Below are positions 14,055 through 43,430 of a DNA stretch of 64,000 nt, piece after piece. Each line of letters begins with the position of its first letter. Position 1 is the first letter of the stretch. Made by a program: the position numbers and the translations under genes. The stretch spans positions 62,001-126,000 of the forward strand of contig JAEINS010000012.1 in the NCBI GenBank assembly GCA_016342755.1, read 5' to 3'. Below the pieces are notes generated by a model. The model was not told the DNA's origin, did no database searches, and worked only from the letters and a program-made list of their open reading frames with translations. This DNA comes from Melioribacteraceae bacterium. Its GTDB lineage: Bacteria; Bacteroidota; Ignavibacteria; Ignavibacteriales; Melioribacteraceae.

Positions 14055-14067
14055 TTCTTTTTTATAA

Positions 14068-21161: not shown

Positions 21162-21956
21162 TTATTTTTGATAAACTCGTACATAATCAATAATAAATTC
21201 TTGCGGAAATGTTGTGTTTTTGTCAGGATAACCAGGCCAATTACCGCCAACAGCAAGATTTAAGATCATGTGAAATCTTTGATCAAAAGGTGCCGGGAAT
21301 TCATGTCCTTCTGTACTCCATTCCGTTTTTGTAGAAAAAAGCTTTCCATCTATAAGCCATTCAATTTTGCCTTCTTCCCAAATTAAAGTAAATACATGAA
21401 AATCATCATTAAAACCGCCGTTTGCAATTGTAAAATTATTCCCACTATTTTTATTATTTGGCCATTTTTCAAAATGAAGAGTTCCGTAAACTTTATTGGT
21501 TTCGTGACCTAAATATTCCATAATATCAATTTCACCGCTGGCAGCCCATGTTCCATAAACATTATCAGTCGGCATCATCCAAAATGCCGGCCAAATTCCT
21601 TTTCCTGAAGGCATTTTTGCTCTCATTTCAAATTTGCCGTATTTCCAATCCCCTTTATTCAAAGTCCTTATTCTAGAGGAGGTATATTTAAAAGTATCCA
21701 AAACTTCTTCTTTTGCTATTATTTTTAAGTGCCCATCAGTAATTACGGCATTATCAGCTATGTAATATTGCCATTCATTATTTCCCCAGCCATTATGTCC
21801 ATTACCAATCTGAATTTCCCATTTTGATAAATCCAATACTTCATCATTAAACTCATCAGACCAAACAAGTTTGTAATTCTGGGCAAACAAATTGTTACTT
21901 AAATTAAATACTCCAATCAGAAATAAAATATTTATAAATGTTGTTTTCTTGATCAT
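21162..21956 (-). CDS. GH16 endo-beta-1,3-glucanase (laminarinase)
   Basis: Exported single-domain GH16 enzyme. After a signal peptide (to about LFAQ), the jelly-roll begins with YKLVWSDEFN. The catalytic signature E-x-D-x-x-E is Glu142, Asp144 and Glu147 in SGEIDIMEYLG, and FHMILNLAVGGNWPG and IDYVRVYQK are typical for laminarinases of this family. It cleaves internal beta-1,3 bonds of laminarin-like glucans. I place the start at the ATG at 21956 (MIKKTTF); an ATG eight codons earlier is possible, and neither has a clear SD sequence. It lies 41 bases downstream of the GPH transporter start region in the same direction. Confidence 0.92.
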   Translation of the reverse strand: MIKKTTFINILFLIGVFNLSNNLFAQNYKLVWSDEFNDEVLDLSKWEIQIGNGHNGWGNNEWQYYIADNAVITDGHLKIIAKEEVLDTFKYTSSRIRTLNKGDWKYGKFEMRAKMPSGKGIWPAFWMMPTDNVYGTWAASGEIDIMEYLGHETNKVYGTLHFEKWPNNKNSGNNFTIANGGFNDDFHVFTLIWEEGKIEWLIDGKLFSTKTEWSTEGHEFPAPFDQRFHMILNLAVGGNWPGYPDKNTTFPQEFIIDYVRVYQK

Positions 21957-22020
21957 TTTGACACTTAATAATTTTATCATATCTATTACTCAATCAGTCC
22001 TAGTAAAAAGTAAATTTAAC

Positions 22021-23441: not shown

Positions 23442-24905
23442 TTAGTAAACTATTGATTGTATTGCACGTGGTTCAATTTCTAATTCTACTGCATCAAGAT
23501 TTATATATAATTTATAACTAATTTTTTCCCCAGTTTCATTCATGACAACTGTAACCATTTTACCATCTTCATTTAGAAATGATGTGCTTAATAGTGCACT
23601 TCTACTGCTTGCAGTGCTAACTCTTTTTGCATTTGGTCTTATAAATTTTGAAAAATGACCAATGTAGTAATAAGACGGAGTATATATTATATCACCAGTT
23701 TTAGTATCAGCATGAACAGGTGCAAAGCAGAAGTTACCTACATGGTTTGGCCCACCATTTTCATCTAGTAGAATATTCCAATCGGTCCAACCGACCGTAC
23801 CATAATTAAAATCATTTATCATCGATCTGCCGTAACGTTCTCCGTTTTTCCATGTCTGATATCCGTTTTCTCTAAAACTTTCGGCACATCCTTCAGTAAA
23901 AAGCAGTTTTTTATCCGGATATGATTCATTTACATTCCCGATATTCTTATACATTTCAGTACCGCCTGACCATGATTCGTACCAATGGAATCCGGTTCCC
24001 CACGCATATTTTGCAGCTTCCGGATCATCAAAAATAACACTGGCTCTGCGTGATATAAGATCTCTGTTATGATCCCATACAACAATATTCTTATTACTGT
24101 ATCCTGCTTTAGCCATAACCGGACCTAAATGATTTTTTAAGAAATCGCGCTCTTCTTCGGCAGAGTAAATACATGATTCCCAGGTTTGAGTAGCCATAGG
24201 TTCATTCTGAATTGTTATTCCCCAAATAGGCATTCCTTCTTTTTCATATTCTTTTATGAATTTAGTATAATAAAGTGCCCAAGACTCATAATAATCCGGT
24301 AATAATTTGCCGCCTTTTAACATATGATTATTGCTTTTCATAAATGCTGGCGGACTCCATGGACTTGCATAAAGAGGTAATTTACCTCCCGCAGCTGTAA
24401 TAGCTTTTTTGATAAGAGGAATACGAAATTCTTTATCGTGACTAATATCAAAAGTTTTCAATTCTTTATCTTCATCCGATACATATGTATAACTGCCGGA
24501 ACTAAAATCACAGCTATGAATAGAAGTTCTGGCAAGAGTATATCCAATTCCGTCTTCTTTATCATAATAAGCTTTTAATAATTCTTCTTGTTTTTCTTTT
24601 GTAAGTTTGGCAAAAACCTCTGCCGATGCATCTGTAATTGCGCCGCCAATTCCAAAAAATGTCTGGAATGTTTTGTTGGGATTTACAAATACACAAGTCT
24701 CGGTTTCAACTGGCTGTTTTGAATTCTGGAATGATATTTTACTATCAGACTCGCTCAATTTTAAGTCAGTATCTTTAGCAGTAGAATAAACAGTTACAGA
24801 TTTCCCTTCAGTTGTAAATTGATTTTTAACCACTTTGGTTTGCTCTTTGGCATTACATCCAACCAATACCAAAAGCAAAGTGACAAGTAAAGCTTTGTAT
24901 TTCAT
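23442..24905 (-). CDS. GH30 glucanase lipoprotein
   Basis: A 487-residue lipoprotein (lipobox ending at Cys17) of glycoside hydrolase family 30. The acid/base is Glu235 in TIQNEPMATQTWESC and the nucleophile Glu338 in LLFTEGCAE. GIGGAITDASAEVF at the start of the barrel and the C-terminal beta-sandwich (about 410-487) complete the fold. The pattern fits subfamilies that include glucosylceramidases and beta-1,6-glucanases. Next to beta-1,3-glucanases the likely role is removal of beta-1,6 branches of laminarin, which is inference. SD GGAG lies 7 bases before the ATG. Upstream are a terminator hairpin and an inverted repeat. Confidence 0.9.
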   Translation of the reverse strand: MKYKALLVTLLLVLVGCNAKEQTKVVKNQFTTEGKSVTVYSTAKDTDLKLSESDSKISFQNSKQPVETETCVFVNPNKTFQTFFGIGGAITDASAEVFAKLTKEKQEELLKAYYDKEDGIGYTLARTSIHSCDFSSGSYTYVSDEDKELKTFDISHDKEFRIPLIKKAITAAGGKLPLYASPWSPPAFMKSNNHMLKGGKLLPDYYESWALYYTKFIKEYEKEGMPIWGITIQNEPMATQTWESCIYSAEEERDFLKNHLGPVMAKAGYSNKNIVVWDHNRDLISRRASVIFDDPEAAKYAWGTGFHWYESWSGGTEMYKNIGNVNESYPDKKLLFTEGCAESFRENGYQTWKNGERYGRSMINDFNYGTVGWTDWNILLDENGGPNHVGNFCFAPVHADTKTGDIIYTPSYYYIGHFSKFIRPNAKRVSTASSRSALLSTSFLNEDGKMVTVVMNETGEKISYKLYINLDAVELEIEPRAIQSIVY

Positions 24906-25010: not shown

Positions 25011-27254
25011 TTATTTTATAATTTCAAACTCAGATTCTAATAAATCTGCTGAATTAGAACCAATCCAGATTTTAAATTTCCCCGGTTCGGTAACACTTTC
25101 CATTTCAGCATCATGTATAGATAATTCATCTGTGTGAATACTAAATTTTACTGTCTTTGTTTCATCTGTTTTCAAATGAATTCTTTGAAATCCTTTTAGT
25201 AATTTTACAGGCTGAACTGCACTTGCGGATAAATCCCTTATATATAACTGAACAATTTCATCCGCATTGTAATTACCAAGGTTTTTCAATAAACATTCAA
25301 CCTCAATTATTTCACCAAGTTTATATTTCTCTTTAAATATTTTAATTGCTGAATAATCAAACTTGGTGTACGATAATCCGTATCCAAAGGGATATGCCGG
25401 ACTTATATCAACATCTAAATAAAATGAGGCAAAACCTTTAGGATTTAACGGTGTGCCTAGCGGAACACTTCTATCAACCGATTCTGCAGGTCTGCCGGTA
25501 TTATGATGAGCGTAATAAATAGGAATTTGTCCAACTGATCTTGGAAATGTTATTGGCAGTTTGCCCGAAGGTGTTTCAACTCCGGTTAAAATATCAGCTA
25601 TAGCGGGACCACCCATTGTTCCAGGATGCCATGCATATAAAATAGCGTCAACTTCCGATTCGATTTTTTCAAATGTTAATGGTCGGCCTGCCATAATAAT
25701 TGTTATTATTGGTTTTCCCGTAGCCGCTAATTTGCTAACTAGTTCTTCCTGGGCACCTGGCAGATTAAGAAACGCTCTGCAATGAGATTCACCGGAAAGA
25801 AACGCGTCTTCGCCAATAAACAAAAGTACAACATCAGATTTATTAGCGGCCGAAATTGCATCCGCAAATCCGTCTTCGTCAGAATCAACAGTCGATTTTA
25901 AACCTTTTGCAAAAATCACTTCTTTATCATTTCCAAACTTTTCTTTTAAAGCAGTTAACGGAGTTATACCGTCTTTGCCAAATCCTTCAAAAACCCAGCA
26001 TCCATTTTGTTCAAGAGCATTATCAGCTAAAGGACCAATTACAGCAATTTTTTTAAAATCATCAGAAAGCGGCAAGATTTCATTTTTGTTTTTTAATAAC
26101 ACAATACTCTGTCCGGCTAACTTTTCTGCAACTTTAAGATGTTCTTCCTGCCGGGCAACTTTTGAATCAGGAATAGCTGTATAAGGATTTTCAAACAGAC
26201 CAAGTTTATATTTAAGTCTTAATATATTTTTAACAGCGTTATCAATAAGCGCGGCATCAATCTTTTTTTCATTAATTAATGTTTCTAAATGGTCAATATA
26301 ACTTGTTGAAGCCATTTCCATATCGATGTTTGCTTCTATCGATTTGAAGGCAACTTCTTTTTCATCTTCGCAAAAACCGTGCATAATCATTTGGGTCATC
26401 GAAGCCCAATCGCTAACAACTAAGCCGTTAAATCCCCATTCATCTCTTAAAATAGTTTTAAGAGTAAATTTATTTCCGCTTGCCGGAATTCCATTTATAT
26501 CATTAAAAGCACTCATCATAGAAGCCACATCAACATCAACAGCTTCCTTAAACGGTTTTAGATGTATTTCTCTTAATTGTCTTTCGGGAATAAATGTTGT
26601 GTTATAGTCTTTACCGGCTTCTGAAGCGCCATAACCTACAAAATGTTTTGCGCAAGCTGCCATACTTGTAGGATCAGTAAGATCTTTACCCTGAAATCCT
26701 TTAATCATTGCGGCACCAAGCTTGCTTGTTAGATATGGATCTTCACCGCATGATTCCGCAACTCTTCCCCACCGTGGATCTCTCGATATATCTATCATTG
26801 GCGCGAATGTCCATTTAATTCCGGTTGCGGTTGCTTCTACGGCGGCAACTCTTGCAGCTTTTTCAATTAACTCTGCATTCCAGCTTGCAGCCTGTCCTAA
26901 TGGTATTGGAAAAATTGTTTCCTGCCCGTGAATAACATCCCGCGCAAAAATTAAAGGTATACCCAGGCGGGTTTCTTCTACAGCAATTTTTTGTAATTCG
27001 TATGTGCTTTTAGCATCAGAGGCATTTAGGAATGATCCTACTTTGCCATTTTTAATAGTTTCTCGTAAGTCTTCAACAGAACCCCAAAATGATATTTGCT
27101 GCATCTGACCAATTTTTTCCTGCAAGGTCATTTTGGATAATAATGTGTCAACTTTATTTTCAATCTCTTCTTTGCCTAAAGTGTCGGCAAAAACAATATT
27201 AGCAATTAATATAAATATTATAAAAAATTTTAATCTCAGTAAAATGTTGTACAT
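25011..27254 (-). CDS. GH3 beta-glucosidase
   Basis: A 747-residue exported GH3 enzyme with the same layout as periplasmic BglX: signal peptide (to about VFAD), barrel with SMAACAKHFVGYGA and nucleophile Asp282 in GLVVSDWASM, alpha/beta sandwich with LNLPGAQEELV and GRPLTFEKI, and a C-terminal fibronectin III-like domain. It would split short beta-gluco-oligosaccharides to glucose. The frame is open for 46 more codons, but that stretch overlaps the GH16 gene. The ATG at 27254 has AGGGGAAGT directly before it and begins a proper signal peptide, so I chose it. It follows the second GH16 gene by 34 bases. Confidence 0.93.
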   Translation of the reverse strand: MYNILLRLKFFIIFILIANIVFADTLGKEEIENKVDTLLSKMTLQEKIGQMQQISFWGSVEDLRETIKNGKVGSFLNASDAKSTYELQKIAVEETRLGIPLIFARDVIHGQETIFPIPLGQAASWNAELIEKAARVAAVEATATGIKWTFAPMIDISRDPRWGRVAESCGEDPYLTSKLGAAMIKGFQGKDLTDPTSMAACAKHFVGYGASEAGKDYNTTFIPERQLREIHLKPFKEAVDVDVASMMSAFNDINGIPASGNKFTLKTILRDEWGFNGLVVSDWASMTQMIMHGFCEDEKEVAFKSIEANIDMEMASTSYIDHLETLINEKKIDAALIDNAVKNILRLKYKLGLFENPYTAIPDSKVARQEEHLKVAEKLAGQSIVLLKNKNEILPLSDDFKKIAVIGPLADNALEQNGCWVFEGFGKDGITPLTALKEKFGNDKEVIFAKGLKSTVDSDEDGFADAISAANKSDVVLLFIGEDAFLSGESHCRAFLNLPGAQEELVSKLAATGKPIITIIMAGRPLTFEKIESEVDAILYAWHPGTMGGPAIADILTGVETPSGKLPITFPRSVGQIPIYYAHHNTGRPAESVDRSVPLGTPLNPKGFASFYLDVDISPAYPFGYGLSYTKFDYSAIKIFKEKYKLGEIIEVECLLKNLGNYNADEIVQLYIRDLSASAVQPVKLLKGFQRIHLKTDETKTVKFSIHTDELSIHDAEMESVTEPGKFKIWIGSNSADLLESEFEIIK

Positions 27255-27288
27255 ACTTCCCCTATAATAATCATCCTTTAATTCTTGT

Positions 27289-28122
27289 TTAATCATTCGC
27301 CTTATAAACACGAACATAATCAACTTCCATAGTCTGAGGGAAAATATATCCGTCAACACCTTGCAAACCGCCCCAATTACCGCCGACTGCAACGTTTAAT
27401 ATAATGTGAAAATCTTTATCGAATGGCCAGACTTCCCAGCCTGTTCCTTCATTAATAAACCTAAAATATGGCTTATCATCAATTAAACCCCTAATTTCAT
27501 TTTCATTCCATTCAATTATATAGTTATGAAATTCCTCTGAACAATCAGTAACTATTGTAGTTCCAGTTTTTTGAGTACCGTTTGAGTGTACATAGTTATT
27601 GCAATGAATTGAAGCATGAATTTTTCCTTGATCATATCCCACATGTTCCATTATATCAATTTCTCCGTTATCCGGCCAGCCTCCGTTTCCATAAGACCAA
27701 ACTGTAGGAAGCATCCAAATAGCAGGCCAGGTTCCTTTGCCGCTGGGTAATTTTGCTCTAATTTCAAACCGGCCGTAAGTCCAGTCTCCTTTACCTTTAG
27801 TAACCAGCCTTGCTGATGTATAAAAATTATTCTCATAATTTTCAACTTCGGCAGTAATTACAAGTTTTCCATCCTTTACAACTGAATTTTTTTCCCTATC
27901 AGTATAATATTGAAGTTCATTATTTCCCCATCCATGTCCGCCAATATCATAACCCCATTTTTTTGGATCTGGATTTCCTTCATAATCAAATTCATCTGCC
28001 CAGACTAGTTTCCATTTTGAAGTATCTTTATCATCGGGTGTAACCGGATTATCCTTATCTTCGGAACAAGAAACCGCGCTTATATATATGAAGATAAAAA
28101 ATAGTATTATTAATTTTTTCAT
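27289..28122 (-). CDS. GH16 endo-beta-1,3-glucanase lipoprotein
   Basis: A second GH16 laminarinase-type enzyme, 277 residues, made as a lipoprotein (ISAVSC, Cys19). The catalytic triad Glu154, Asp156 and Glu159 lies in NGEIDIMEHVGY. KLVWADEFDYEG opens the jelly-roll, and IILNVAVGGNWGG and MEVDYVRVYK close it. It differs from the GH16 at 21162 by membrane anchoring, which suggests division of labour between periplasmic/surface-bound and soluble forms. The start is the ATG at 28122, one codon inside the longest open frame, which begins with TTG. It follows the PorV-like gene (- strand order) after a hairpin. Confidence 0.92.
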   Translation of the reverse strand: MKKLIILFFIFIYISAVSCSEDKDNPVTPDDKDTSKWKLVWADEFDYEGNPDPKKWGYDIGGHGWGNNELQYYTDREKNSVVKDGKLVITAEVENYENNFYTSARLVTKGKGDWTYGRFEIRAKLPSGKGTWPAIWMLPTVWSYGNGGWPDNGEIDIMEHVGYDQGKIHASIHCNNYVHSNGTQKTGTTIVTDCSEEFHNYIIEWNENEIRGLIDDKPYFRFINEGTGWEVWPFDKDFHIILNVAVGGNWGGLQGVDGYIFPQTMEVDYVRVYKAND

Positions 28123-28148
28123 CAAGTCAGCCTTATTTGGTTTATATA

Positions 28149-28186: not shown

Positions 28187-29224
28187 TTAGAAATTAAAAC
28201 TTACTGCGAATTTTTGTATAGAACCTAAACGATTAAAATACGTGTATGAATAATCGAGACTAACATTAACATTTCTCAAGAATTTTTGTTTAAGTCCCGC
28301 ACCAACAGAAAATGTTTCTTCAGCATAATCAAGAAACATGTTTTTGTAGCCGCCTCTTAATGAAAACACATCTTGAAATACATATTCACATCCGGCATTT
28401 ACACTTTCGTAATCATCACTTGGATGAGAAGCATCAGCCGCAAATAATAATCTATGATCTTCACTATTTATAGCGTCCCATGCAATTCCAAGTTTAAATC
28501 CCATTGGCAAATCCCATTTTTCTGTTTGTAAGTGGGCAGGAATATTATCGTTATTACCAACTGTCTCAATATCCTGATCAACTAAAATCACAGTACTGTT
28601 GCCGGTTAGCTGCATTTTCTGACCAAAGTTAGTGATTGACATACCTAAAGTAATTCCTTTAAACGGAGTATTATAAAGTACACCAAAATCAATTGCCAAA
28701 GCAGTTGAGTTAGTTTTCCAAATACTCTGCGAAATTAGTTTAGGATTTAATCCTACAGAAAAATTATCGCTTATATTCATTGCCCAGCCAATACTAACAG
28801 CAATATCCGAAGCTGTGAACATTTCGCCTGTACCTTCAGGATCTTCAATTGTTGTTACTTTCATATCTCCATAGTTTGAAGAAATAAAACTTACACCAAC
28901 CGCACCCATTCCACCAATATTAAATGAAGTAGACGCCGCATTGTAATCAACATCCGCAAACCACTGAGTGTGTTCGAACATTGCAGTATTCTGCGGTTGA
29001 CGTGCAATACCGGCAACGTTCCAGAATATTGAACTTGGATCATCCGCTACTGCTGTAAAAGCACTTCCCATTGATGTTGCTCTGGCTCCTTGCGGAATTT
29101 TAAGGAACTGAGCAGCTTGCGTACCACGTTTTGATACATTTTCTACATAGTTTTGGTTCTGGGCTTGAACCAAAATAGAAGTCAGTAACATTAGTACGAA
29201 TAAATTTATAAATCTATCTTTCAT
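28187..29224 (-). CDS. PorV/PorQ-like outer-membrane beta-barrel protein
   Basis: A 345-residue protein with signal peptide (cut near VQAQ) and the PorV/PorQ (UPF0164-like) pattern. The N-terminal phrase FLKIPQGARATSMGSAFTAVADDPSSIFWNVAGIA is the hallmark; it is followed by repeated amphipathic strands and a C-terminal strand ending in FAVSFNF. PorV proteins are 14-strand FadL-like barrels that act as shuttles in type IX secretion. Here it closely follows a T9SS-type protein and a TonB receptor, so it probably serves that pair. SD AGGA is present. It is the last gene of the uptake trio. Confidence 0.85.
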   Translation of the reverse strand: MKDRFINLFVLMLLTSILVQAQNQNYVENVSKRGTQAAQFLKIPQGARATSMGSAFTAVADDPSSIFWNVAGIARQPQNTAMFEHTQWFADVDYNAASTSFNIGGMGAVGVSFISSNYGDMKVTTIEDPEGTGEMFTASDIAVSIGWAMNISDNFSVGLNPKLISQSIWKTNSTALAIDFGVLYNTPFKGITLGMSITNFGQKMQLTGNSTVILVDQDIETVGNNDNIPAHLQTEKWDLPMGFKLGIAWDAINSEDHRLLFAADASHPSDDYESVNAGCEYVFQDVFSLRGGYKNMFLDYAEETFSVGAGLKQKFLRNVNVSLDYSYTYFNRLGSIQKFAVSFNF

Positions 29225-29238
29225 TTTTCTGCCATTCC

Positions 29239-32200
29239 TTATTTAATTAACGCAAATTTGCCAATATGTTCACCAATACCAGGAGCATCAACATGATAAA
29301 CATATATTCCATAAGCTACATCCATACCGTCATCAGAAACAAGATTCCAAGATTCAGAACCATCCTCGGCACTAGAACTTCTGTCTATAATTTTTACTAA
29401 CGCACCAGACATTGTGAAAATTCTAATTGTACATTTAGCAGGAAGATGAATAAAATCAATTCTTCGTTCACCGCGGCCATACTGGTTAAGATTTCTCTTT
29501 TCCCAAGACGCGGAAGTTACATATGGATTTGGAACAACACCTATATCATCAAGATCATTTTCAGCTCTGTCTTTATCAACACTTGCAGCTTCTGTATTAA
29601 AGCTGAAATAATCACCGTTATCAAAAGGTTTATTTGTTTTCATTACAAATACATCGCCAGCAACCGGCATTAGAACAGGCTTATTCATTTCTGGAACATA
29701 TCTAAACTCAACACTCCATGTAAATTTAGGATTTCCTTCATCAGTGTACTGAACAAATCTTAAAATATCGTTATAAGATAAATTACCGGAATTATCCTGA
29801 TCTGATAACGCTGTTCCAACTGTATCACCAGTTGTTGTATTTATAACAAGACAATTTAACGGCAGCTTTTTTAATAAATCGTATGAAACTATTTCATCAA
29901 AAAATCTAATTTCATAATCCGCCGCCCATTTTGTATTTCTAGAACCGCCTTTATCATCCGGTCTGACAATCATTGTCATATTGCTTCTGCCAATTGACCA
30001 ATCGGTGTTGGGCATATCAATAGCTAATGAATCATTAATTACAGTCAATACAAGACCGTCAAACGGAGCACTAAATTTATTCGGACCAAAATCAGTTGAA
30101 GCTAATGCACTTATTGTATCAACAGAACCTTCATAACTACGAACCAGAGATAAAGAATTTGTCAGGTAATTATATGGTTCACCAGAAGATTCAAATACAG
30201 CTTCATATTGAGCTCCGTCTTTAACTTCTGCCGGATTTACAATATTAACTCTTAAAGCTCCGGTTCCTTTTCCCTCTGAAACCTGGCTAAGATCGCCAAG
30301 TATGCCTGGAGGTAAATAACCAGCGGCAGGCGCATCTGGAACAACAATAGCACAGTTATAATCAATAAACTGTACATTACCAGAAAAATCTTCATTAATA
30401 ATTTTTGTACATGTAGCCGGAACAATTGCTTTTGCCGAATCACCCATATCATAAGAAACTAACGCGTAATAGTATTTAACTCCATTCTGTACAGTTGTAT
30501 CAACATATGAGTGACGAAGTCCGGTATCATCACCTCTCCAGAAATGGGCACCATTAATACCAGTTATATCCGGGCCAACAATACCATCAATTTTATCAAA
30601 CTGTGCTAAAGGTTTATAGAATTTAGGTTCACCCTTTGCGTCAGTTATTATTTTAATATCATTAAATTCCGGTTCGCGGCTTCTAAGAATTGTGTAACCT
30701 TCAAAATCTTTCTTTGCACCTTGTGTAACATCATTGTTTTCATAACCCATAAACGGGTCTCTGGAATCTTCAGCTACATCATCCCAGAATAAATAAACCT
30801 TGCCATCGGAAGGAACTGCTGTTAAATGAGGCTTCAATGGTGGTTTTGCAAAGTTATAGTTTGCGTCGTAAATATCCTGTACTGTTCTTTTATTGAAAAA
30901 TAAATCTTCTAAGTTAGAACCAAAAAGTAATGCCATAGAAAATCGTTCTCTTTGTCCATGAATTAAAGGAAATGGACCAGACGCAAATACCATACTAATA
31001 TTCGCATTTTGTAATGTAGTATCAAATGACTGATAGTTCATTTTTGCCCACATTGATTCGTCATCTTTTGGCCATCCGCCGCCTGTACCGCCATCACCAA
31101 GTCTATAAATAGATAAACTTGTTAAACCTATCTGATCTGATTCATCAATATCATTTTCATCAAAGTTTGGTTCACCAGCGTTTGGAATTCCGTTCCCTTC
31201 TGTTCCGTCTAAATCGGGACCAACATATTGCGGATCAAAAGGACCAACACCATCAGTACCAACATCACTGTTTAATGGTTCGTTTTCGTCAGCATCCCAT
31301 TTACCGTTTTCGTTTAAATCAGTATAAGTATTCCAGTCACCGTCATTATCAATTCCATCGTCTCTTCTTTCATCAACCATAGGAACGCCGTTAACATCAA
31401 CGTCATTATCATCGTTAATTCCGTTATTACCAATTCCGGGACTTTCTAAATATGCGTACCCATAATAACCGGTTTTCCAATTATCCGGCGGAGCCTTTCC
31501 GTCTTCATCATATCCAAACGCTATATCAAGATCCAGATCAAATGAAGCAAAGTCATCACCGCTATCATTAGTACCACCGACACCAGTATCAGTATAAAAT
31601 CCAAAAACTGCTTTATTGTAATCTATATCCGCCAGATTTACGATATCATAATGCCAGAAAATAATATCTTCCGCTAAAATCTGAGACCACTGAAATCCCC
31701 TTACTTCAACACGTAATCCTAAACCGCCTCTATTTGAATCGGCAGCAACCGGATTATAGTAGTATGGAAATCTTTGGTACTCTTTATCTTTTGAATCATC
31801 CATAACAAAGAATGTTTCGAAATCTGAGTTAATTACGCCTCTACCAAAATATCCGTACCAGTATCCATCCCATGTGTTGTCTATTTTTGGCAAAGCTCTT
31901 GGCCACAAATCCGGCCATGTTGTTGAATCACTACTCATAGCAGGCGATTCTGTTGTTAAAGAAGTATAAAACGGTACAGGTTCAAGACCCCAAATATCTC
32001 CCGTTCTAGGATCAGTATCCATCCACTCGCGATATGATGCTTCTAAAGGATGAACAAGTTGTCCATTGCCCGGAGCTTCTACTTCTGCGGAAATTAAAAC
32101 AGTTACACCGTCTAAATATCCATGGCCAGTACCTTTTGGCCACTCACCAGAAGGAGAGAACGGCCACTGACCTACTTCCCCGTTATTATAAAAGAGTGTT

Positions 32201-32355
32201 CTTACCTGATTACCAGCCATTATTCCTTCTTTTCGGAAAGAAATATCCCCATAAGGATCATCCAAGAATTTTTGAATCTGCTCTGGGGATTCCTGGGCAA
32301 TGATAGTCCCACTCATTATTAGTAAAATTGTTATAAGCAATAATTTGCGATACAT
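29239..32355 (-). CDS. Large T9SS-type surface protein partnered with the TonB receptor
   Basis: A 1038-residue exported protein with signal peptide (to about IIAQ). No enzyme domain is recognised. The N-terminal half is rich in Trp/Tyr/Gly and beta-like. Residues about 309-410 form an acidic Asp/Asn-rich stretch of DxDxDG type (for example DDGIDNDGDWN, DLNENGKWDADEN) like calcium-binding thrombospondin-3 or dockerin-like repeats. Fibronectin-like parts follow, and the last 100 residues form a variant T9SS domain with VVPNPYVTSASW and a final GKFALIK. SD AGGAG precedes the ATG by 6 bases. It is 23 bases after the TonB receptor and 14 before PorV. Role inferred: surface ligand-binding partner of the receptor. 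Confidence 0.7.
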   Translation of the reverse strand: MYRKLLLITILLIMSGTIIAQESPEQIQKFLDDPYGDISFRKEGIMAGNQVRTLFYNNGEVGQWPFSPSGEWPKGTGHGYLDGVTVLISAEVEAPGNGQLVHPLEASYREWMDTDPRTGDIWGLEPVPFYTSLTTESPAMSSDSTTWPDLWPRALPKIDNTWDGYWYGYFGRGVINSDFETFFVMDDSKDKEYQRFPYYYNPVAADSNRGGLGLRVEVRGFQWSQILAEDIIFWHYDIVNLADIDYNKAVFGFYTDTGVGGTNDSGDDFASFDLDLDIAFGYDEDGKAPPDNWKTGYYGYAYLESPGIGNNGINDDNDVDVNGVPMVDERRDDGIDNDGDWNTYTDLNENGKWDADENEPLNSDVGTDGVGPFDPQYVGPDLDGTEGNGIPNAGEPNFDENDIDESDQIGLTSLSIYRLGDGGTGGGWPKDDESMWAKMNYQSFDTTLQNANISMVFASGPFPLIHGQRERFSMALLFGSNLEDLFFNKRTVQDIYDANYNFAKPPLKPHLTAVPSDGKVYLFWDDVAEDSRDPFMGYENNDVTQGAKKDFEGYTILRSREPEFNDIKIITDAKGEPKFYKPLAQFDKIDGIVGPDITGINGAHFWRGDDTGLRHSYVDTTVQNGVKYYYALVSYDMGDSAKAIVPATCTKIINEDFSGNVQFIDYNCAIVVPDAPAAGYLPPGILGDLSQVSEGKGTGALRVNIVNPAEVKDGAQYEAVFESSGEPYNYLTNSLSLVRSYEGSVDTISALASTDFGPNKFSAPFDGLVLTVINDSLAIDMPNTDWSIGRSNMTMIVRPDDKGGSRNTKWAADYEIRFFDEIVSYDLLKKLPLNCLVINTTTGDTVGTALSDQDNSGNLSYNDILRFVQYTDEGNPKFTWSVEFRYVPEMNKPVLMPVAGDVFVMKTNKPFDNGDYFSFNTEAASVDKDRAENDLDDIGVVPNPYVTSASWEKRNLNQYGRGERRIDFIHLPAKCTIRIFTMSGALVKIIDRSSSAEDGSESWNLVSDDGMDVAYGIYVYHVDAPGIGEHIGKFALIK

Positions 32356-32378
32356 TTAAAACTCCTAAACTATAATTA

Positions 32379-35117
32379 CTAGAATCCCACTCTTACGCCA
32401 AGTCTAATTTGTCTTGGACTAGAAAAGCTAGTTGGATTATTTTGATATTGTTCTTTTGTATTGTAGCCAATAACTTCACCGGATTCATCGAGAAATAAAT
32501 TCTGATTTGCACGGCCGGTTGTTGCGTCAACACCAGTTTCGTTTTGAATATCGAGTATGTTATACACTAATAAAAATGCATTTAATCTAACAGGACCAAC
32601 TTCAAACGATTTGTCTAATTTAAGATCAACATTATACCATTCCGGCTTACGACCGCCATTTTCAACACGTAATCCTTTCGAAATTCTTTCGGATACAGTA
32701 TAAGGAGTTCCCGAACCATAATTAGCTATAATGCCTAAGTTCCAATCACCAGGATTACCAAGATTTAACGCGATGTTAACAGTTGATGCCTGATCCCAGT
32801 TTAGAGCAACAACTTTCTTTTCAGATTCAACTGGCGGATCGGATTGATTATCATTATACACAGACATTGGATCGGAAGAGTTACCTTCTGCAACCTGGAA
32901 TGTATAATCAATTTTTAAGCCCCAGAAATCGGAGAATCTTTTGTCGAATGTTAAAATTAAACCTTTAACATTTCCATAATCTTTATTTATAAAACGGGCA
33001 TACTTAAATCCTTCATAAGTATTAAGGATTTCCATACCAAGTAAATTTCTTATATCATTATAATAAACTGTTAAATCCAGTGCTACATTAGGGAATATTA
33101 CTTTCTGAAGACCTAATTCGTACTTAACGGTTTTTTCTGCCTTAAGTTGCGGATTTCCAATCTGTGAACTTAGAGACTGACCTGGCTGAATTATATATTC
33201 ACTATTCTGATATAATCTTTCGAATGCCGGAATCTGGAAAAAATGTCCGTAAGAAAAGTGTAAAGCTCCATCAGCAGATACCGGAAAAGATATTCCTAAT
33301 CTAGGACTAACCTGCAATTCAGCGTCAACATCTTTAGTTAAACCAGCTCCGGGAAAGTTTGGATTAGGATTTAACTGCGATGGATTACGTAAATCATCTG
33401 GAATAAATGTATTTGAATTAAAATAATCAACCCTGATACCAGCATTAATTATCATAATATCATATTCCATTTTATCCTGAATATATGCCGATATTTCATA
33501 AGGTTTTCTTGAATATGAATTGTTATTGCCTGTATGAGGATCGCTATAACCAAGTTCAAAAATTTCTTCATCAGAAGGTTCTAAATCTATAATAGTTCTC
33601 CAATGAGTTGACATTTCGTGAATTCTGGTTTCAACACCAATTCCAATTTTATGTTCTTTTGAAATTTGTGAATTTAAAGACCACTGGGCTATAAATGTTT
33701 TAGTTTTTCTGTTAAAACGATCGCCCTGAGTACCGCCTTGTCTAAAAGTATTAGAACTGATTGTTTGTCCAATTTTTGGATCCATATATCTGGAATCATA
33801 GGGATTTTCATATAAATAGTTTTCATAGCTGTGTTCATTCAATGAAAACTTTAAAGATGTATAAGTACTGTTTGAAGGGAAATAATTTATATGAAAGCTA
33901 TGCACAATGTCAGTATCGTAGTTATTTAAGATTCCGTCTGGTGTCCACGACCAGTAATGATCGTAATATTGATTCCAGTTATCACCCCAGAGTAAACTAT
34001 ATGTAAATTTCCAATCCGGTAATGAATATGCTATTTTAGCGTTAAAAGATTTTCTTTCGCTCTGATTCATAGAAACATATTCAGCCTTTCCATCTTCAAT
34101 CTGCTTAGAAGTCCAATCAATAAGTTCTTCCGGATTATTTGGATTTAAATGTTCAAAATATTCTTCATAAGAAGCTATACCAGTAGGTAACCATCTTTCG
34201 GTATCTGTAGTGTTATAAACTCTTTCTCCATACAGATGTCCGCCATTATCAACGTAACGGCCGGTTGCAAAGAATGTTAAATTCTTTAATATAGGACCAC
34301 TAAGTGAAAATTGAAAATCTTTCACTCCGTCGGTTTGAATACCATCTAAATTTCTAAAAACATCTGATTCACTTGTTAAATATGTTCCAACATACGCTGT
34401 TGCGGATGCATCAAAATTCTGTGAACCTTCCTGAGTTACTATATTAACAATACCGGACATTGCCTGTCCATACTCAGCATTAAAAGTACCACTGATTACT
34501 TCAATTTCTCTAATCGCTGAATTTTCTACTTCAACTGACATGCCGCCGTTATAAGCATCAGTTACTGCAACACCATCAACTAAATAACTTACTTCTCCCG
34601 AACGACCACCTCTAAAGTGACCATCCATAACACCTGCCTGAAGATTTACAATCTGTCCTACACTTTCGACCGGCATCATATTTATTTCATCAGCAGATAC
34701 TGTAGCCGAACTTGATGTTAAATCCATTACAACCTGCGGTCTTTCTGCAACAACCACAACATCTTCACCTAAATCAATAGCTGCTGAAGTAAGTTCAACA
34801 TCTAGTTTAGTTGATAAATCAATTTTTACAACAACCTTAGTAATAGTAACCTTATGATATCCCATAGCACTAACAATACAATTGTATGTACCCGGAGCAA
34901 TATTATTTATAAAATAATATCCGTCTATATCAGCGGCCGCACCTGCATAAGTGCCTTCTATTATTATGTTAGCTCCAATTATAGGCTCACCGGTTTCTTT
35001 ATCAGTAATTGTACCGGCAATTTTACCAGTTGTACCGGCAAAAATAAATGAGCTTAAGAGTGTAAAAATACCAAATACCAGCAATAATTTTTGCTGGTTA
35101 AATAAATTGGATTTCAA
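32379..35117 (-). CDS. TonB-dependent receptor with carboxypeptidase-regulatory-like domain
   Basis: A 912-residue outer-membrane receptor. After the signal peptide (to about IFAG) comes an N-terminal CarboxypepD_reg-like domain (GKIAGTITDKETGEPIIGAN, about 25-110), then the plug (about 125-235, with GGRSGEVSYLVDGVAVTDAY and NAEYGQAMSGIVNIVTQEG) and a 22-strand barrel ending in RQIRLGVRVGF. It resembles SusC-like receptors but has no SusD neighbour. The start is best placed at the TTG at 35117: a perfect GGAGGT stands 7 bases before it, and the open codons above overlap that SD. It is the first gene of the uptake trio. Probable ligand: beta-glucan oligosaccharides. Confidence 0.9.
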   Translation of the reverse strand: MKSNLFNQQKLLLVFGIFTLLSSFIFAGTTGKIAGTITDKETGEPIIGANIIIEGTYAGAAADIDGYYFINNIAPGTYNCIVSAMGYHKVTITKVVVKIDLSTKLDVELTSAAIDLGEDVVVVAERPQVVMDLTSSSATVSADEINMMPVESVGQIVNLQAGVMDGHFRGGRSGEVSYLVDGVAVTDAYNGGMSVEVENSAIREIEVISGTFNAEYGQAMSGIVNIVTQEGSQNFDASATAYVGTYLTSESDVFRNLDGIQTDGVKDFQFSLSGPILKNLTFFATGRYVDNGGHLYGERVYNTTDTERWLPTGIASYEEYFEHLNPNNPEELIDWTSKQIEDGKAEYVSMNQSERKSFNAKIAYSLPDWKFTYSLLWGDNWNQYYDHYWSWTPDGILNNYDTDIVHSFHINYFPSNSTYTSLKFSLNEHSYENYLYENPYDSRYMDPKIGQTISSNTFRQGGTQGDRFNRKTKTFIAQWSLNSQISKEHKIGIGVETRIHEMSTHWRTIIDLEPSDEEIFELGYSDPHTGNNNSYSRKPYEISAYIQDKMEYDIMIINAGIRVDYFNSNTFIPDDLRNPSQLNPNPNFPGAGLTKDVDAELQVSPRLGISFPVSADGALHFSYGHFFQIPAFERLYQNSEYIIQPGQSLSSQIGNPQLKAEKTVKYELGLQKVIFPNVALDLTVYYNDIRNLLGMEILNTYEGFKYARFINKDYGNVKGLILTFDKRFSDFWGLKIDYTFQVAEGNSSDPMSVYNDNQSDPPVESEKKVVALNWDQASTVNIALNLGNPGDWNLGIIANYGSGTPYTVSERISKGLRVENGGRKPEWYNVDLKLDKSFEVGPVRLNAFLLVYNILDIQNETGVDATTGRANQNLFLDESGEVIGYNTKEQYQNNPTSFSSPRQIRLGVRVGF

Positions 35118-35153
35118 TTTGAATACCTCCAATTGTATCTTTTAAAATCAAAA

Positions 35154-35193: not shown

Positions 35194-37665
35194 CTATTTT
35201 ATTAACATCATTTTTCTTGTTTGAACAAAATCATTTGCTTTAATAGAATAGAAATAAATTCCAGTTGAAAGAACTGAAGCATTAAATTTATAAGTGTGAG
35301 TACCAGCACTTAATTCTTCGTTTACTAAATCAGTTACTTTTTCGCCAAGAACATTAAAAATACTTAATGTAACTAAACCTTTAACAGGAATACTAAAGTT
35401 TATGTTTGTGCTTGGATTAAAAGGATTTGGATAATTCTGCTCTAATTCATAAGTAGAGATAACTGTAGAAGTATTTTCGTTAACGTCAGTCATTTTATCG
35501 CCAATCCATGTATAAGACCAACGAGCCGGAGAAACATGAGATTGATCTTCGTTATTAGGAGAATAAGTAATAATTCCGGTTCTAGGTTCGCCATCAGCAT
35601 CATTTACAGAAATATCAAGAGGAATTCTCATTCCCTCTACAGGATGGAATCTATTTCTTGAAGCATCTGCTAAAGAATCTAAAGAGAATTTCGCTTCAAC
35701 TACATAACCGCCTAAAAATCCTTCTTCCCAATAATAATTTGCTGTTCCTTCTTTTGCAACAACTTTACTGCCAACGTTATCTAATATAGCCTGTGCTTTG
35801 TTAAATCTAAAGTGATAATCTGATTCATCACCTGTTTTATATGATCCATGTGCCGCACCATGCCAGTCGTAGAAACCAATAAATAAATCAGGAGCGTCAT
35901 TCATCCAAGAATCGGAAGCAACATCTGGTGATACTTCATCATCTGTAACATCAAAAGCTACATATAAATAATCATCATCAAAAGCTATATAAGTAACTAC
36001 TGAACAATCATCATCACCGTCTACTGCCTGATTAGCGGGATAAAACGCTGTATTTGTAGTAGTACTTACTACTATTGGTGTAACACCAGCCCAATCAGCT
36101 AAATCACCATCAGCAACAAAATTTGACGGAGCACCCATATTAATATAAGGTACACCTTCAGCAGTGTTAGAGATAGCTACATCATTAACCGCAACAGGAC
36201 TTTCATTACCGGCTGCATCAAAACAGATTACCGCATAATAATATTCTAGAACCTGATCTTCTCCCGGAGCACGAAGAACATGATCAACTGCTAATAATTC
36301 ACCGATAAACTTTTGAGTTAAAACTTCAACACCCGCAGCTGTTACATCGGTAATAGGATCTAAACTATAATAAATTGAATATGCTTCATTTACTTCGCCC
36401 GGTACTTTATCCCAGGTTACTGTATTAATATATGTACCCTGTATTGCAGTTACATTTTGCGGAGCTTCAGGATTAATTAAATCGAAGAATGGAGTTCCTG
36501 TCCACCAGTCATCCATATAAACTGTTTTTCCTGATCCATTACCTTCAGTTAATATTTGCAGTACTTTTACTGAATCAAAATTAAAATCAGCAGTTCCATC
36601 AAAATAAGTCATCATTTCAGTTAACGGGAATTCATAAGAATGCCATTCGCCATCAGTAGTTGGATCGAAGTTAGCACCAATTTTTGCGGCACCATCTTCA
36701 AACTGAAGACGTAAAGTTCCAACACCATCTTCGGCTTTCATTTTGAATTTCAAAGTATCAAGATTCCATCTTAAAGATAAATTTGCAGGTGATAGTAAAT
36801 TAAAACCATAGCCTGTCCACGCATCATTTTGAACCCATTTTAACGCATTTGGAGATTCAGGATTATTACCCGCGCCTTCAACTAATTCAGCAGTTCCGCC
36901 CCATTGGAATAATTCCATAGTACTAGGAATAGCCGCACCGTTAAAAAATACTAAAGGATTTTCAGCAGCGCCTTTAAGGGCAATTTTATCAATTAAGATA
37001 GTACCAGTACAAGTATTCCCGTCTCCGCCACCGCCAATAGAGAATTCAAAACAGAAACCTTTAATTTTGTCTTTGTCTAATATATTGTTACCTGCAACAC
37101 CAGACCAGCCAGTTCTGTTAAATGCTTCGCCATTCCATGCTGCATTATCGGGATTCCAGTCTAAAGCAATTTTAAATTCTGTCCACTCATTTGTACTATC
37201 ATCTAATATGTATTCAAAACTATAATAGAATTCACCTTCACCACTATCATAAGTTTTATTACCATCAGGAGCATCACTTACATCATAAAGGTTTACTCTT
37301 AAATGTACTTGACCTGGATCACTTTGTGGTGCAACATTTTTATACCAAAATGATAAAGTATCAAATGCTGACCAATCATATACGGAATTTGAATCAGGAT
37401 GGTAATGTTCAATTTTACCAAATCCACCCCAGCTTTCACTATTTTGAACTGTATAATCAATTTGCATTGATCCAGCGCCGCTTACCGCATCACTTGTAAA
37501 TGATGGTGTACAATTATGTAAAGTTGAATCTGAATTATCTCCAAATACTTTAGCCCAAAAAGATGTATCAAGAGGTTCTTCATCAAAATCCCAAAGAACT
37601 TTTTCCTGAGCAAAAAAACCGCTCACTGTAAAAAGCATTAAAAAAACAATAAGAAAACGTTTCAT
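35194..37665 (-). CDS. T9SS-secreted multi-domain carbohydrate-binding protein
   Basis: An 823-residue secreted protein without a recognisable catalytic domain. After the signal peptide (to about FFAQ) come two jelly-roll, CBM11-like segments (about 20-225 with VLWDFDEEPLDTSFW, and about 230-400), a fibronectin III domain (about 410-500), and a CBM9/DOMON-like domain (about 520-720, beginning DGDLADWAGVTPIV, with DDYLYVAFDVTDDEV). A T9SS C-terminal domain with YPNPFNPSTNINF ends it. AGGAG lies 5 bases before the ATG at 37665, which fixes the start over a longer open frame. It is probably a surface glycan-binding protein that takes the role SusE/F-type proteins have elsewhere. Confidence 0.82.
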   Translation of the reverse strand: MKRFLIVFLMLFTVSGFFAQEKVLWDFDEEPLDTSFWAKVFGDNSDSTLHNCTPSFTSDAVSGAGSMQIDYTVQNSESWGGFGKIEHYHPDSNSVYDWSAFDTLSFWYKNVAPQSDPGQVHLRVNLYDVSDAPDGNKTYDSGEGEFYYSFEYILDDSTNEWTEFKIALDWNPDNAAWNGEAFNRTGWSGVAGNNILDKDKIKGFCFEFSIGGGGDGNTCTGTILIDKIALKGAAENPLVFFNGAAIPSTMELFQWGGTAELVEGAGNNPESPNALKWVQNDAWTGYGFNLLSPANLSLRWNLDTLKFKMKAEDGVGTLRLQFEDGAAKIGANFDPTTDGEWHSYEFPLTEMMTYFDGTADFNFDSVKVLQILTEGNGSGKTVYMDDWWTGTPFFDLINPEAPQNVTAIQGTYINTVTWDKVPGEVNEAYSIYYSLDPITDVTAAGVEVLTQKFIGELLAVDHVLRAPGEDQVLEYYYAVICFDAAGNESPVAVNDVAISNTAEGVPYINMGAPSNFVADGDLADWAGVTPIVVSTTTNTAFYPANQAVDGDDDCSVVTYIAFDDDYLYVAFDVTDDEVSPDVASDSWMNDAPDLFIGFYDWHGAAHGSYKTGDESDYHFRFNKAQAILDNVGSKVVAKEGTANYYWEEGFLGGYVVEAKFSLDSLADASRNRFHPVEGMRIPLDISVNDADGEPRTGIITYSPNNEDQSHVSPARWSYTWIGDKMTDVNENTSTVISTYELEQNYPNPFNPSTNINFSIPVKGLVTLSIFNVLGEKVTDLVNEELSAGTHTYKFNASVLSTGIYFYSIKANDFVQTRKMMLIK

Positions 37666-37693
37666 AATAACTCCTAGTTTGTTGTTAGAATAG

Positions 37694-37709
37694 AATGACA
37701 ATTGTCATT
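37694..37709. promoter_or_regulatory. 16-base perfect palindrome upstream of the T9SS binding protein gene
   Basis: AATGACAATTGTCATT is a perfect palindrome without spacer. It is 29 bases before the start codon of the binding-protein gene and directly after the SSS symporter stop. Compact symmetry and position fit an operator; a weak terminator is the alternative. Confidence 0.4.
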
Positions 37710-37710
37710 A

Positions 37711-39309
37711 TTAAATTAGTATTTCTAAAAGAATCAAAATTAAAACAAATGTTAATGAACCGATTATAGGTGTCTTGTAGTGCGAATACTCCAATCCTAC
37801 ACTTTGCAGACTAAACGTATAATCCTTAATTAGATTACTGACTTTTATATTGTTTGTTAATTTACTAACGGTTACTAAAATGACAGATGAAATTACAAAT
37901 AATACAAATGAAAAATATAGATAGTTAATATTATTGAATTCTATAAAAATGGGTGAAATAAACGAATCAGCGGGAATTATGTAAGGGGCAATTAGTTTTA
38001 TTAAACCAATTAAACCACCAATAAAAAGGGTCCACATAACACCTTTACTGTTAGCGCCTTTCCAAAAAATACCAAATAAAAATATACTTGTAATTGGAGG
38101 ACTTAAGTAAGCCTGGATTTCCTGAAGTGAAAAATAGATTTGTATATCCATTACTTTAACAATAGGAATAATACTAATAGTAATTAGAATTATTATTGTT
38201 GTAGATAATCTGCCAACTAATACAAGTTCATGTTCCGAAGCTTTTTGTTTTATTAGTTTGTAAATATCGTTTGTAAAAAGTGCCGCCGCGCTGTTAAAAG
38301 AACTTGCCAATGATGACATAAGCGCGGAAATAATTCCTACTAAAATTAAACCCTTTATCCCGGAAGGAATAAAAGAACCATTTATTAAATTTGATAATGC
38401 AAAGTTTCCGTTTGATTCAGGATATAAAATGCTGGCAATTAAACCTGGTATAATTATAAAAAATATTGGAAGTGATTTTAAGAATGCTGTTAATAAAGTG
38501 CCCTTTCGCGCTTGTTTAATATTTTTAGCGCTTAATATTCTCTGCATTATATATTGATCTGTGCACCAATACCAAATTCCTATTATTGGCGCTCCTAATA
38601 TAATCCCTAACCAGGGATATTGAGGATCACTTAATGGTTTTGTAATATCTAAATATGAGCCTGGTATTTTTGCGAAGAATTGTTCAATTCCGCCAATTTC
38701 CGATATTCCGAAGAAAGTTAAAAGAAATGCGGCTAATAATAATAAAACTGATTGAACAATTTGTGTATTTACAACTGATCTCATTCCGCCAATAACCGTA
38801 TAAACACCGGTAATTAAAATTATAAGTATTGTAGCATTTAAGACATTTAATTCCAGAACTTCACTAAGAATAAAGCCGCCGGCTAAAATTGTAACAGAGA
38901 TTTTTGTAATGAAGTAAAATACAATGGAAATAACAGCTATAATTGTACGAATTTTATTATTAAAACGCTCACCAAAAAATTGAGGCATTGTTAAAGTTTT
39001 TGTTTTTATTAAAACAGGAGCAATAAACCATCCAAGGAAAATAAGAATAAATACTGCCAGCCATTCAAATTGCCCTACACACAATCCCCTTTCAGAACCG
39101 GCAGCAATTAAACCAACAAAATGTGCAGTAGAAATATTAGTAGCAAAAATTGATAATCCAATAGCAACCCACCCAAGATTTCTTCCGGCTAAAAAATAAT
39201 CTTCGGTTGTATGCTGCTTTGATTTTACAGTATACAAACCAATTACCAGAATTGCGCAAAAGTAGATTACCAACACAATATTATCAAATAAATCTAAGCC
39301 GCTTACCAA
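37711..39309 (-). CDS. SSS family sodium/sugar symporter
   Basis: A 532-residue inner-membrane protein with about 13-14 hydrophobic segments of the sodium:solute symporter (SGLT) family. TTEDYFLAGRNLGWVAIGLS at the first loop, ATNISTAHFVGLIAAG around the sodium site, GGMRSVVNTQIVQSVLL in segment 5 and WYWCTDQYIMQRILSAK are characteristic of its sugar-transporting branch. It probably imports glucose or a short glucoside released by the GH enzymes. The start is TTG at 39309, preceded by AGGA at a proper distance. A weak -24/-12-like site lies at 39337-39352. Confidence 0.9.
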   Translation of the reverse strand: MVSGLDLFDNIVLVIYFCAILVIGLYTVKSKQHTTEDYFLAGRNLGWVAIGLSIFATNISTAHFVGLIAAGSERGLCVGQFEWLAVFILIFLGWFIAPVLIKTKTLTMPQFFGERFNNKIRTIIAVISIVFYFITKISVTILAGGFILSEVLELNVLNATILIILITGVYTVIGGMRSVVNTQIVQSVLLLLAAFLLTFFGISEIGGIEQFFAKIPGSYLDITKPLSDPQYPWLGIILGAPIIGIWYWCTDQYIMQRILSAKNIKQARKGTLLTAFLKSLPIFFIIIPGLIASILYPESNGNFALSNLINGSFIPSGIKGLILVGIISALMSSLASSFNSAAALFTNDIYKLIKQKASEHELVLVGRLSTTIIILITISIIPIVKVMDIQIYFSLQEIQAYLSPPITSIFLFGIFWKGANSKGVMWTLFIGGLIGLIKLIAPYIIPADSFISPIFIEFNNINYLYFSFVLFVISSVILVTVSKLTNNIKVSNLIKDYTFSLQSVGLEYSHYKTPIIGSLTFVLILILLEILI

Positions 39310-43314: not shown

Positions 43315-43344
43315 AAAATCACCTCTATAAAAAATTTCATATAT

Positions 43345-43360
43345 TTCAAATTTTGCACCA
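43345..43360 (-). promoter_or_regulatory. Partial sigma-54-like -24/-12 site upstream of the GH5 gene
   Basis: The - strand reads TGGTGCAAAATTTGAA. GG and TTG are at the correct -24/-12 spacing, with the -12 C replaced by A. The start codon is 31 bases further on. Suggestive only. Confidence 0.25.
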
Positions 43361-43430
43361 AGGGACAAAAAGGATTGAAATAGAACTTAAATGGAATACT
43401 CTTTTAGATACATAAATTGTTTAAATTATA

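Follow-up and report, generated by a model that had tools for sequence, protein, structure and literature searches.

In a 64,000-nucleotide stretch of the genome of a Melioribacteraceae bacterium (assembly GCA_016342755.1, contig JAEINS010000012.1, positions 62,001 to 126,000; hereafter the window) we analyzed a trio of adjacent genes encoding a TonB-dependent receptor, a large exported protein and an outer membrane barrel of the PorV/PorQ family. We propose, with a probability of roughly 0.6, that the trio forms an outer-membrane uptake module that works without SusD, in which a surface subunit is delivered by the type IX secretion system (T9SS) and held by its own PorV-like barrel. All three genes lie on the minus strand in the transcription order receptor (32379 to 35117), large protein of 1038 residues (29239 to 32355) and barrel of 345 residues (28187 to 29224). 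The gaps between them are 23 and 14 bases, and the open reading frame (ORF) coordinates thus agree with the initial annotation of this DNA, which had described three closely adjacent genes. The ORF tool extends the receptor from 32379 to 35132 (917 residues). Since a second TTG at 35117 sits seven bases behind a GGAGGT motif, this codon is, judged from the letters around it, the better start. The third gene had been called PorV-like, and its product reaches 220.4 bits against the PorV/PorQ family model NF033709 (cut-off 90), in line with that assignment; its PDB similarity is to Flavobacterium johnsoniae PorV (6h3i, E 2.3e-9). It stays below the equivalog model for PorV proper, NF033710 (71.5 bits, cut-off 250), and below the PorQ model (115.6 bits, cut-off 220). 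The large protein matched no Pfam or NCBIfam family at E<=0.01.

The large protein ends in a variant T9SS C-terminal domain (CTD; last 139 residues, 29239 to 29658). The window protein matched neither the type A CTD models (PF18962/TIGR04183) nor the type B model PF13585. We scanned the last 139 residues of 110 trio copies one by one at E<=0.01. These copies comprise 7 from this genome, 65 from 80 foreign loci and 38 from 40 further regions, both described below; copies with short genes, copies at contig edges, the own copy L069b (receptor split over two stretches) and five divergent own paralogues were left out. PF18962 matched 1 of the 110 tails, which bears out the variant C-terminus of the initial annotation, and PF13585 matched 22 of them weakly (best E 1.6e-4). 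Four of the five divergent paralogues (L066, L068, L074, L075) were also scanned and gave no confident PF18962 match. The upstream T9SS neighbors from the same loci matched PF18962 in 39 of 39 cases; these are the proteins longer than 400 residues in a BLAST cluster that comprises 55 upstream proteins, one representative of which was scanned whole, and since all of them are related to a protein with a tail, they do not form a random sample. PF18962 was likewise found in all nine relatives of the large protein outside trios (L158, two in L205, L206, two in L207, L208, L216 and L217; Fisher 1e-12 for 1/110 versus 9/9, not corrected for kinship). A six-frame search of the 14 to 23 kb around these nine revealed no PorV-like gene, and no receptor except for a 375-residue ORF in L158 scoring 92 bits. 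L158 matches the window protein over residues 4-922, with the best segment 60% identical, and then runs into an ordinary tail. Because of these two opposite frequencies of type A tails, we conclude that the variant tail accompanies a neighboring PorV-like barrel, and that the ordinary tail is found where no such barrel is nearby. A dedicated cargo-shuttle pair predicts this pattern. Since the variant tail occurs with the barrel and the relatives outside trios carry the ordinary one, the barrel looks dedicated to the large protein, which supports the earlier suggestion of a PorV reserved for one T9SS cargo.

A profile comparison of the variant tails with type A tails gave 94.3% probability over 53 columns, which hints at a possible relation, and the genome encodes the T9SS translocon protein SprA (1036 bits, cut-off 200). 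Known systems offer parallels for such a pairing. According to the relevant passages of PMC10202324, PorU is kept on PorV and PorZ on PorQ by uncut CTDs, and cognate PorV-like barrels have been suggested to protect CTDs. Similarly, the parts of PMC9143113 and PMC12618676 that deal with type B cargo describe it as clustered with, and held by, cognate PorP/SprF barrels.

The trio is repeated in this genome (4.73 Mb, 56 contigs), where we found 13 trios in identical order and one rearranged set. The large proteins of eight trios are clearly alike over their full length; those of the other five have diverged and are linked by BLAST mainly via the C-terminal part. Of 18 PorV-family genes above the NCBIfam cut-off, 13 lie in trios and one in the rearranged set. 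Two PorV-family genes adjoin each other in L077 (8557-10455) with neither a receptor nor a large protein beside them. PF00593 misses four of the 13 trio receptors (L065, L066, L071, L075), which BLAST detected, so that the genome holds at least 31 receptors.

The same gene order was found in other organisms. A profile of eight own copies was scanned against bacterial genomes, and the best 80 of at least 484 confirmed stretches were retained. By record titles these loci belong to Ignavibacteria, Calditrichota, Neomarinimicrobiota, Rhodothermaceae, Delongbacteria, Stahlbacteria, Bacteroidetes and other metagenome-assembled genomes; a cultured organism, Stygiobacter electus, carries a trio (L085). 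Altogether these loci contain 85 large-protein copies, of which eight are cut off at a contig edge. Among the 77 copies with both neighbors visible, 76 sit in a cluster with a receptor and a PorV-like gene, and 72 are strict-order trios, two of these only after a six-frame check. The remaining five are two copies separated from the barrel by one additional gene, two that share one receptor and barrel cluster, and one orphan. Forty further regions, hand-picked by us from weaker relatives within the class in the lower part of the matches listed, hold 41 copies. ORF calls alone show 38 of them to be strict, and a six-frame check brings the number to 39; of the other two, one has a changed gene order and the other is a partial relative that lies in no trio. 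Another 16 regions, picked partly for odd-looking matches so that orphans are over-represented, gave 10 with trios and 6 with orphans. The initial annotation had reasoned that homologues lying mostly away from TonB receptors would count against such a module; this was not the case in the homologues sampled. Chance adjacency of the three genes is ruled out by the 13 own copies and the 76 of 77 foreign ones.

Some apparent exceptions were ORF-calling artefacts, since six-frame searches recovered full trios in L099, L131 and L183 and, in the later set, in L209, L213 and L214. True exceptions are the orphan with an ordinary tail (L158); L122 and L140, each with one gene of 463-465 residues between large protein and PorV; L148 (622-10250), with two large proteins of different length followed by one receptor and one PorV-like barrel; L182, with the order receptor, PorV, large protein; and L211, where an additional ORF of 595 residues separates the receptor from the large protein. 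L182 also contains a second match (L221, 5681-8266), a protein of 861 residues that shares only the middle domains (profile 485-910). It lies three genes downstream of the reordered trio, is flanked by neither a receptor nor a PorV-like gene and ends, judged by eye, in an ordinary T9SS tail. L215 (4702-16583) shows receptor, large protein, PorV, a second, shorter large protein and a second PorV; here the cargo-barrel pair is duplicated in tandem behind a single receptor. The inserted genes of L122 (6436-7833) and L140 (4614-6005) are lipoprotein-like and of similar length, and PPIC-type rotamase matches lie beside several trios (L065, 4001-5443; weak in L067, 4727-6247, and L123, 8022-9632). 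Such neighbors are perhaps periplasmic chaperones for the large protein.

The receptor consists of a CarbopepD_reg_2 N-terminal extension, a plug and a barrel (CarbopepD_reg_2 65.1, Plug 28.4 and PF00593 93.1 bits). Extensions of the CarbopepD_reg_2 type are common in Bacteroidota receptors. The protein had been annotated as SusC-like, which is too strong a term: it reaches 57.8 bits against the SusC/RagA model TIGR04056 (cut-off 368.25), and its AlphaFold2 model (predicted local distance difference test, pLDDT, 86.8) is closest to PirA (5fp2, Z 39.8) and BtuB (3m8b, Z 38.9). The first matches of the model are PirA, BtuB, Cir and FusA, and a utilisome SusC appears first at Foldseek rank 39. 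The protein should hence be named a TonB-dependent receptor.

The trees of the three partner genes were compared. In 12 own trios (L069b was left out) the pairwise distances agreed with r 0.93 for receptor and large protein, 0.84 for large protein and barrel and 0.89 for receptor and barrel, and none of 2000 permutations was as high. In the 110 trios, with the third partner removed, the stretch that tracks the barrel most closely is the CTD (255 of 300 resamplings), and the one that tracks the receptor most closely is residues 30-162 (234 of 300). Contacts of the N-terminal half with the receptor and of the tail with the barrel would produce such a domain-wise pattern, as could gene order (see below).

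The AlphaFold2 model of the large protein, made from an alignment of 72 sequences, has a mean pLDDT of 88.8 and a predicted template modeling score of 0.81. By our reading of the model, a signal peptide is followed by a beta-supersandwich (residues ~30-505) with an acidic insert (305-412), then by beta-sandwich domains and the variant CTD (~906-1038). The Sec signal peptide was judged by eye from a hydrophobic N-terminus ending in IIAQ. A simple pattern found no lipobox in the first 60 residues of the 72 aligned sequences; therefore, the large protein is not a lipoprotein like SusD. Residues ~30-505 match the beta-supersandwich of carbohydrate enzymes, with Z up to 21.0 (262 residues, 3.0 Å) to dextran dextrinase and further matches to the N-terminal beta-supersandwich of glucoamylase, glucodextranase and the glycoside hydrolase (GH) family enzymes GH94, GH116, GH65 and GH149. 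In those enzymes the beta-supersandwich precedes a helical catalytic barrel; in the model of the large protein mostly strands follow in its place, up to the end. The top Foldseek row by E-value was PorZ (5m11, 1.1e-6), although the two structures fit poorly overall (TM 0.10 by query), and a PDB sequence search with the large protein gave a best E of 0.19 (PorU CTD). The acidic region that had been noted at residues ~309-410 is real, with eight acidic positions invariant in the alignment of 72 (D316, E329, D336, D368, E395, D402, E405 and D407). This insert of about 100 residues in the N-terminal half (codons at 31120 to 31443, minus strand) shows a D-x-D-G-type pattern and is probably calcium-binding.

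Two other identities of the large protein were considered and rejected. For a disguised SusD, the top structural rows are beta-supersandwich enzymes and the 50 rows shown contain no SusD, which in itself is no proof. An active enzyme is disfavored by the model, in which the structural matches span the non-catalytic N-terminal domain of glucoamylase and GH94 proteins. Short relatives of 538-688 residues combine the supersandwich half with an ordinary type A tail (L205, 7663-11235; L206, 8248-10029; L207, 8964-13047; L208, 8409-10190; L216, 5895-7511), in tandem pairs in L205 and L207, and no receptor or PorV-like gene lies in these stretches. They are possibly secreted glycan-binding proteins.

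SusD itself seems to be missing from this organism. The two SusD family models searched, PF07980 and PF14322, found nothing anywhere in the genome at E<=0.01, and a Bacteroides ihuae genome used as positive control gave matches; a hidden SusD of these two families is thereby rejected at this threshold. The initial annotation had suggested that the large protein replaces SusD. That no SusD was found in the genome agrees with this suggestion. As the receptor stays below the SusC cut-off and the N-terminal half of the large protein models as a supersandwich of carbohydrate enzymes, such a replacement would be functional and not by descent. Among the matches listed, the large protein occurs in 35 of the 61 class genomes sampled and in 48 of 118 from the phylum, including 13 of 13 of the same family within that draw. 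PF07980 was found in 14 of the 61 class genomes, with a single match in 11 of these, and in 62 of the 118 phylum genomes. Twenty of the 118 phylum genomes have at least eight SusD matches, and none of these 20 is among the 48 with the large protein (Fisher 9e-6), a comparison to which we give little weight since only about 18 SusD candidates per genome were scored. This inverse trend follows phylogeny and is only suggestive. Many genomes with the large protein also hold one to seven SusD matches in the phylum draw, and trio and SusD systems thus coexist in places.

From these data we derive the following model. The receptor would be the energized pore of a module for uptake of glycans or, more widely, nutrients. 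The large protein would leave the cell by type IX secretion, and its variant CTD would be recognized and kept by its own PorV-like barrel rather than by a general PorV. It would then stay surface-bound on this barrel, neither cut and attached to lipopolysaccharide nor lipid-anchored. The N-terminal beta-supersandwich may bind glycan and sit at the outer face of the receptor as a lid, dock or canopy; the lid form among these is a tentative idea that we consider doubtful. Each paralogue would serve another substrate, and the window copy beta-1,3/1,6-glucan. That the barrel is a dedicated shuttle and holds the tail, that glycan is bound, and that the large protein contacts the receptor and acts as a lid are all steps that we infer. 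In its widest form the proposal describes a third kind of nutrient importer beside lone TonB receptors and receptor-lipoprotein pairs (SusCD, BtuBG). Its extracellular subunit would be built on the beta-supersandwich of carbohydrate enzymes, delivered by the T9SS and kept lifelong on its own PorV-like barrel via a new class of CTD; the module would be a main glycan importer of many Ignavibacteria and occur across several phyla of the Fibrobacteres-Chlorobi-Bacteroidetes group. We regard this wide form as possible, with odds somewhat short of even.

Several observations weigh against the proposed module. In the seven close own trios the distance agreement is lower, with r 0.71 for receptor and large protein (22/2000 permutations as high), 0.36 for large protein and PorV (267/2000) and 0.63 for receptor and PorV (95/2000). 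Gene order alone could give the same domain-wise tree signal. In window tests the 5' end of the PorV gene, which adjoins the tail, shows the strongest link to the tail, both ends of the large protein are linked most strongly to receptor stretch 690-809, and the tests along receptor and barrel fail to separate contact from a gene-order effect. Retention of the tail on the barrel is proposed by analogy only, and we know of no complex of a receptor with such a large protein. Beta-supersandwich relatives exist without a receptor in the 14 to 23 kb seen; therefore, the domain does not need a receptor. Finally, six of the 13 own trios (L068, L069 twice, L073, L074 and L075) have no gene that points to sugars among the one to three neighbors scanned, and the sugar link of L071, a neighboring T9SS protein with X25/CBM20 matches below the family cut-off, is weak, so that the term glycan does not cover all copies.

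The main competing explanation holds that the large protein is a separate surface glycan binder, comparable to SusE/F, that is anchored on the barrel and raises the local glycan concentration, with the receptor working alone, as do the lone TonB receptors of proteobacterial sugar loci. The receptor modeled here resembles classical stand-alone receptors, and both the fold of a carbohydrate-enzyme accessory domain and the relatives without a nearby receptor agree with a free-standing binder. However, there is nearly always one adjacent large protein per receptor, with matching trees, and the neighboring protein with a carbohydrate-binding module (CBM9) and an ordinary tail fits the role of a free glycan binder better. 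We consider this explanation unlikely, although it has a real chance of being correct.

The trio might also be mainly a secretion and anchoring unit, in which the barrel builds an adhesin or other surface structure together with the large protein, the receptor imports or senses another ligand and the operon reflects co-regulation. The closest known pairing is indeed that of cognate PorP/SprF barrels with type B CTD cargo, some of which are adhesins, and some own trios have no sugar genes among the scanned neighbors. Yet 76 of 77 foreign copies have the receptor next to the pair or within one cluster with it, and the sugar-locus context recurs, which renders this explanation improbable. In the 80 foreign loci the commonest upstream clusters are CBM9 proteins with a T9SS tail (55), sodium:solute symporters (SSS; 19) and LacI regulators (8), and the commonest downstream clusters are GH16 (21 proteins), ATP-binding cassette (ABC) solute-binding proteins (17), GH3 (13) and peptidyl-prolyl isomerases (11), each family named from one representative protein per cluster. 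Own copies lie beside an alpha-amylase and a GH99-like gene (L065), a GxGYxYP hydrolase (L064), a sugar-type ABC solute-binding protein (L067), GH130, PNGase F, CBM9 and ROK genes (L072) and GHL10 (L066). That gene order and tail class were co-inherited without functional coupling, with an ancestral variant tail and orphans that swapped theirs by recombination with the abundant type A genes, is very improbable: all trio copies are related and the orphan and trio samples are not independent, but the same-operon neighbors carry type A tails in every tested case and the five divergent own paralogues keep the gene order, with no confident type A match in the four scanned.

Word searches of the open-access literature turned up no description of the trio, in agreement with the initial annotation, which knew of no such system. 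The proposed module resembles SusCD systems (SusC/SusD, RagAB, the levan and dextran utilisomes) in the operon-paired TonB receptor and large surface protein, in the CarbopepD_reg_2 extension of the receptor and in the many paralogues per genome in different glycan loci (for SusCD see also PMC6298971). It differs in that no SusD was found and the receptor is far below the TIGR04056 cut-off; moreover, the partner lacks a lipobox, has about 1000 residues, models as a beta-supersandwich and brings its own PorV-like barrel. In BtuB-BtuG the surface lid of a TonB receptor is likewise no SusD, but BtuG is, in the relevant passages of PMC10404256, a surface lipoprotein that binds B12, whereas delivery in the trio would be by the T9SS with a barrel. 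The lid of that pair is a beta-propeller lipoprotein, and no lipobox was seen in the large protein. Type B cargo with PorP/SprF barrels is alike in that a T9SS cargo lies beside its own barrel, which shuttles or anchors it (PMC9143113 and PMC12618676, in part); in the trio, however, the barrel is of the PorV/PorQ family, PF13585 misses the window protein and a TonB receptor belongs to the set. PorU-PorV and PorZ-PorQ share with the trio a large CTD protein that keeps its CTD on a PorV/PorQ-family barrel (PMC10202324, in the part concerned). They are parts of the T9SS machine, whereas the trio occurs in many copies, comes with a receptor and frequently lies in nutrient loci. An atypical cellulose polysaccharide utilization locus (PUL) without SusD in Cytophaga hutchinsonii (chu_1276-1280) combines a barrel like that of TonB receptors, non-SusD surface binders and a glucanase (PMC12016534, in part). 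Its surface protein CHU_1279 is small (375 residues, two CBM-like domains), and the likeness to the trio is one by description. The main text of that paper contains neither PorV nor T9SS, and the words 'type IX' once. The part of the Melioribacter roseus genome paper that bears on this names one SusCDE set (PMC3534657), and Flavobacteriia PULs without a SusD homologue were counted as incomplete in the corresponding passage of PMC6298971.

PUL finders based on susC-susD pairs would miss trio loci, for which the trio offers a simple signature of glycan uptake in Ignavibacteria, Calditrichota, Neomarinimicrobiota and relatives. With over a hundred natural cargo-barrel pairs (110 aligned), the choice of CTDs by PorV-family shuttles becomes directly testable, and the trio allows a prediction of the T9SS proteins that retain their CTD. 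Should the surface subunit dock on the receptor, the T9SS would be an assembly route for importers, beyond enzymes and adhesins.

The window trio lies within a run of genes for carbohydrate use, all on the minus strand. Upstream are the CBM9 protein with an ordinary type A T9SS tail (35194 to 37701, Pfam), likely a surface glycan-binding protein, an SSS symporter that may serve inner-membrane sugar uptake (37711 to 39309, Pfam and NCBIfam), a GH5 protein with CBM6 and a type A T9SS tail (41329 to 43368) and a sigma-54 response regulator (43464 to 44918), a possible regulator of the locus. Downstream follow a GH16 glucanase (27289 to 28125, Pfam), a BglX-like GH3 beta-glucosidase (25011 to 27392, Pfam and NCBIfam), a GH30 protein (23442 to 24905) whose closest NCBIfam model is the endo-1,6-beta-glucanase BT3312 (255 bits, below the cut-off of 700), a sugar transporter of the major facilitator superfamily (MFS; 22021 to 23379) and a second GH16 (21162 to 21980). 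The remaining part (9131 to 17598) encodes GH3 with CBM6 and a type A tail, GH5 with CBM6 and a type A tail, GH17 and GH3. In total, GH16 occurs twice, GH3 three times, GH5 twice, and GH17, GH30, CBM9, CBM6, SSS and MFS are represented. A TonB receptor thus stands in one run with carbohydrate enzymes, glycan binders and a sugar transporter, as in a PUL in the broad sense, and judged from its enzymes the locus is predicted to serve beta-1,3/1,6-glucan utilization. As listed, the GH3 ORF at 25011-27392 overlaps the GH16 gene by about 100 bases, and its true start is probably further in. A protein of 1145 residues within the locus (17613-21050, minus strand) had no Pfam match at E<=0.001. The locus ends with a gene of the ADP-ribosylglycohydrolase family (7734-9119, minus strand), an odd member for a sugar locus.

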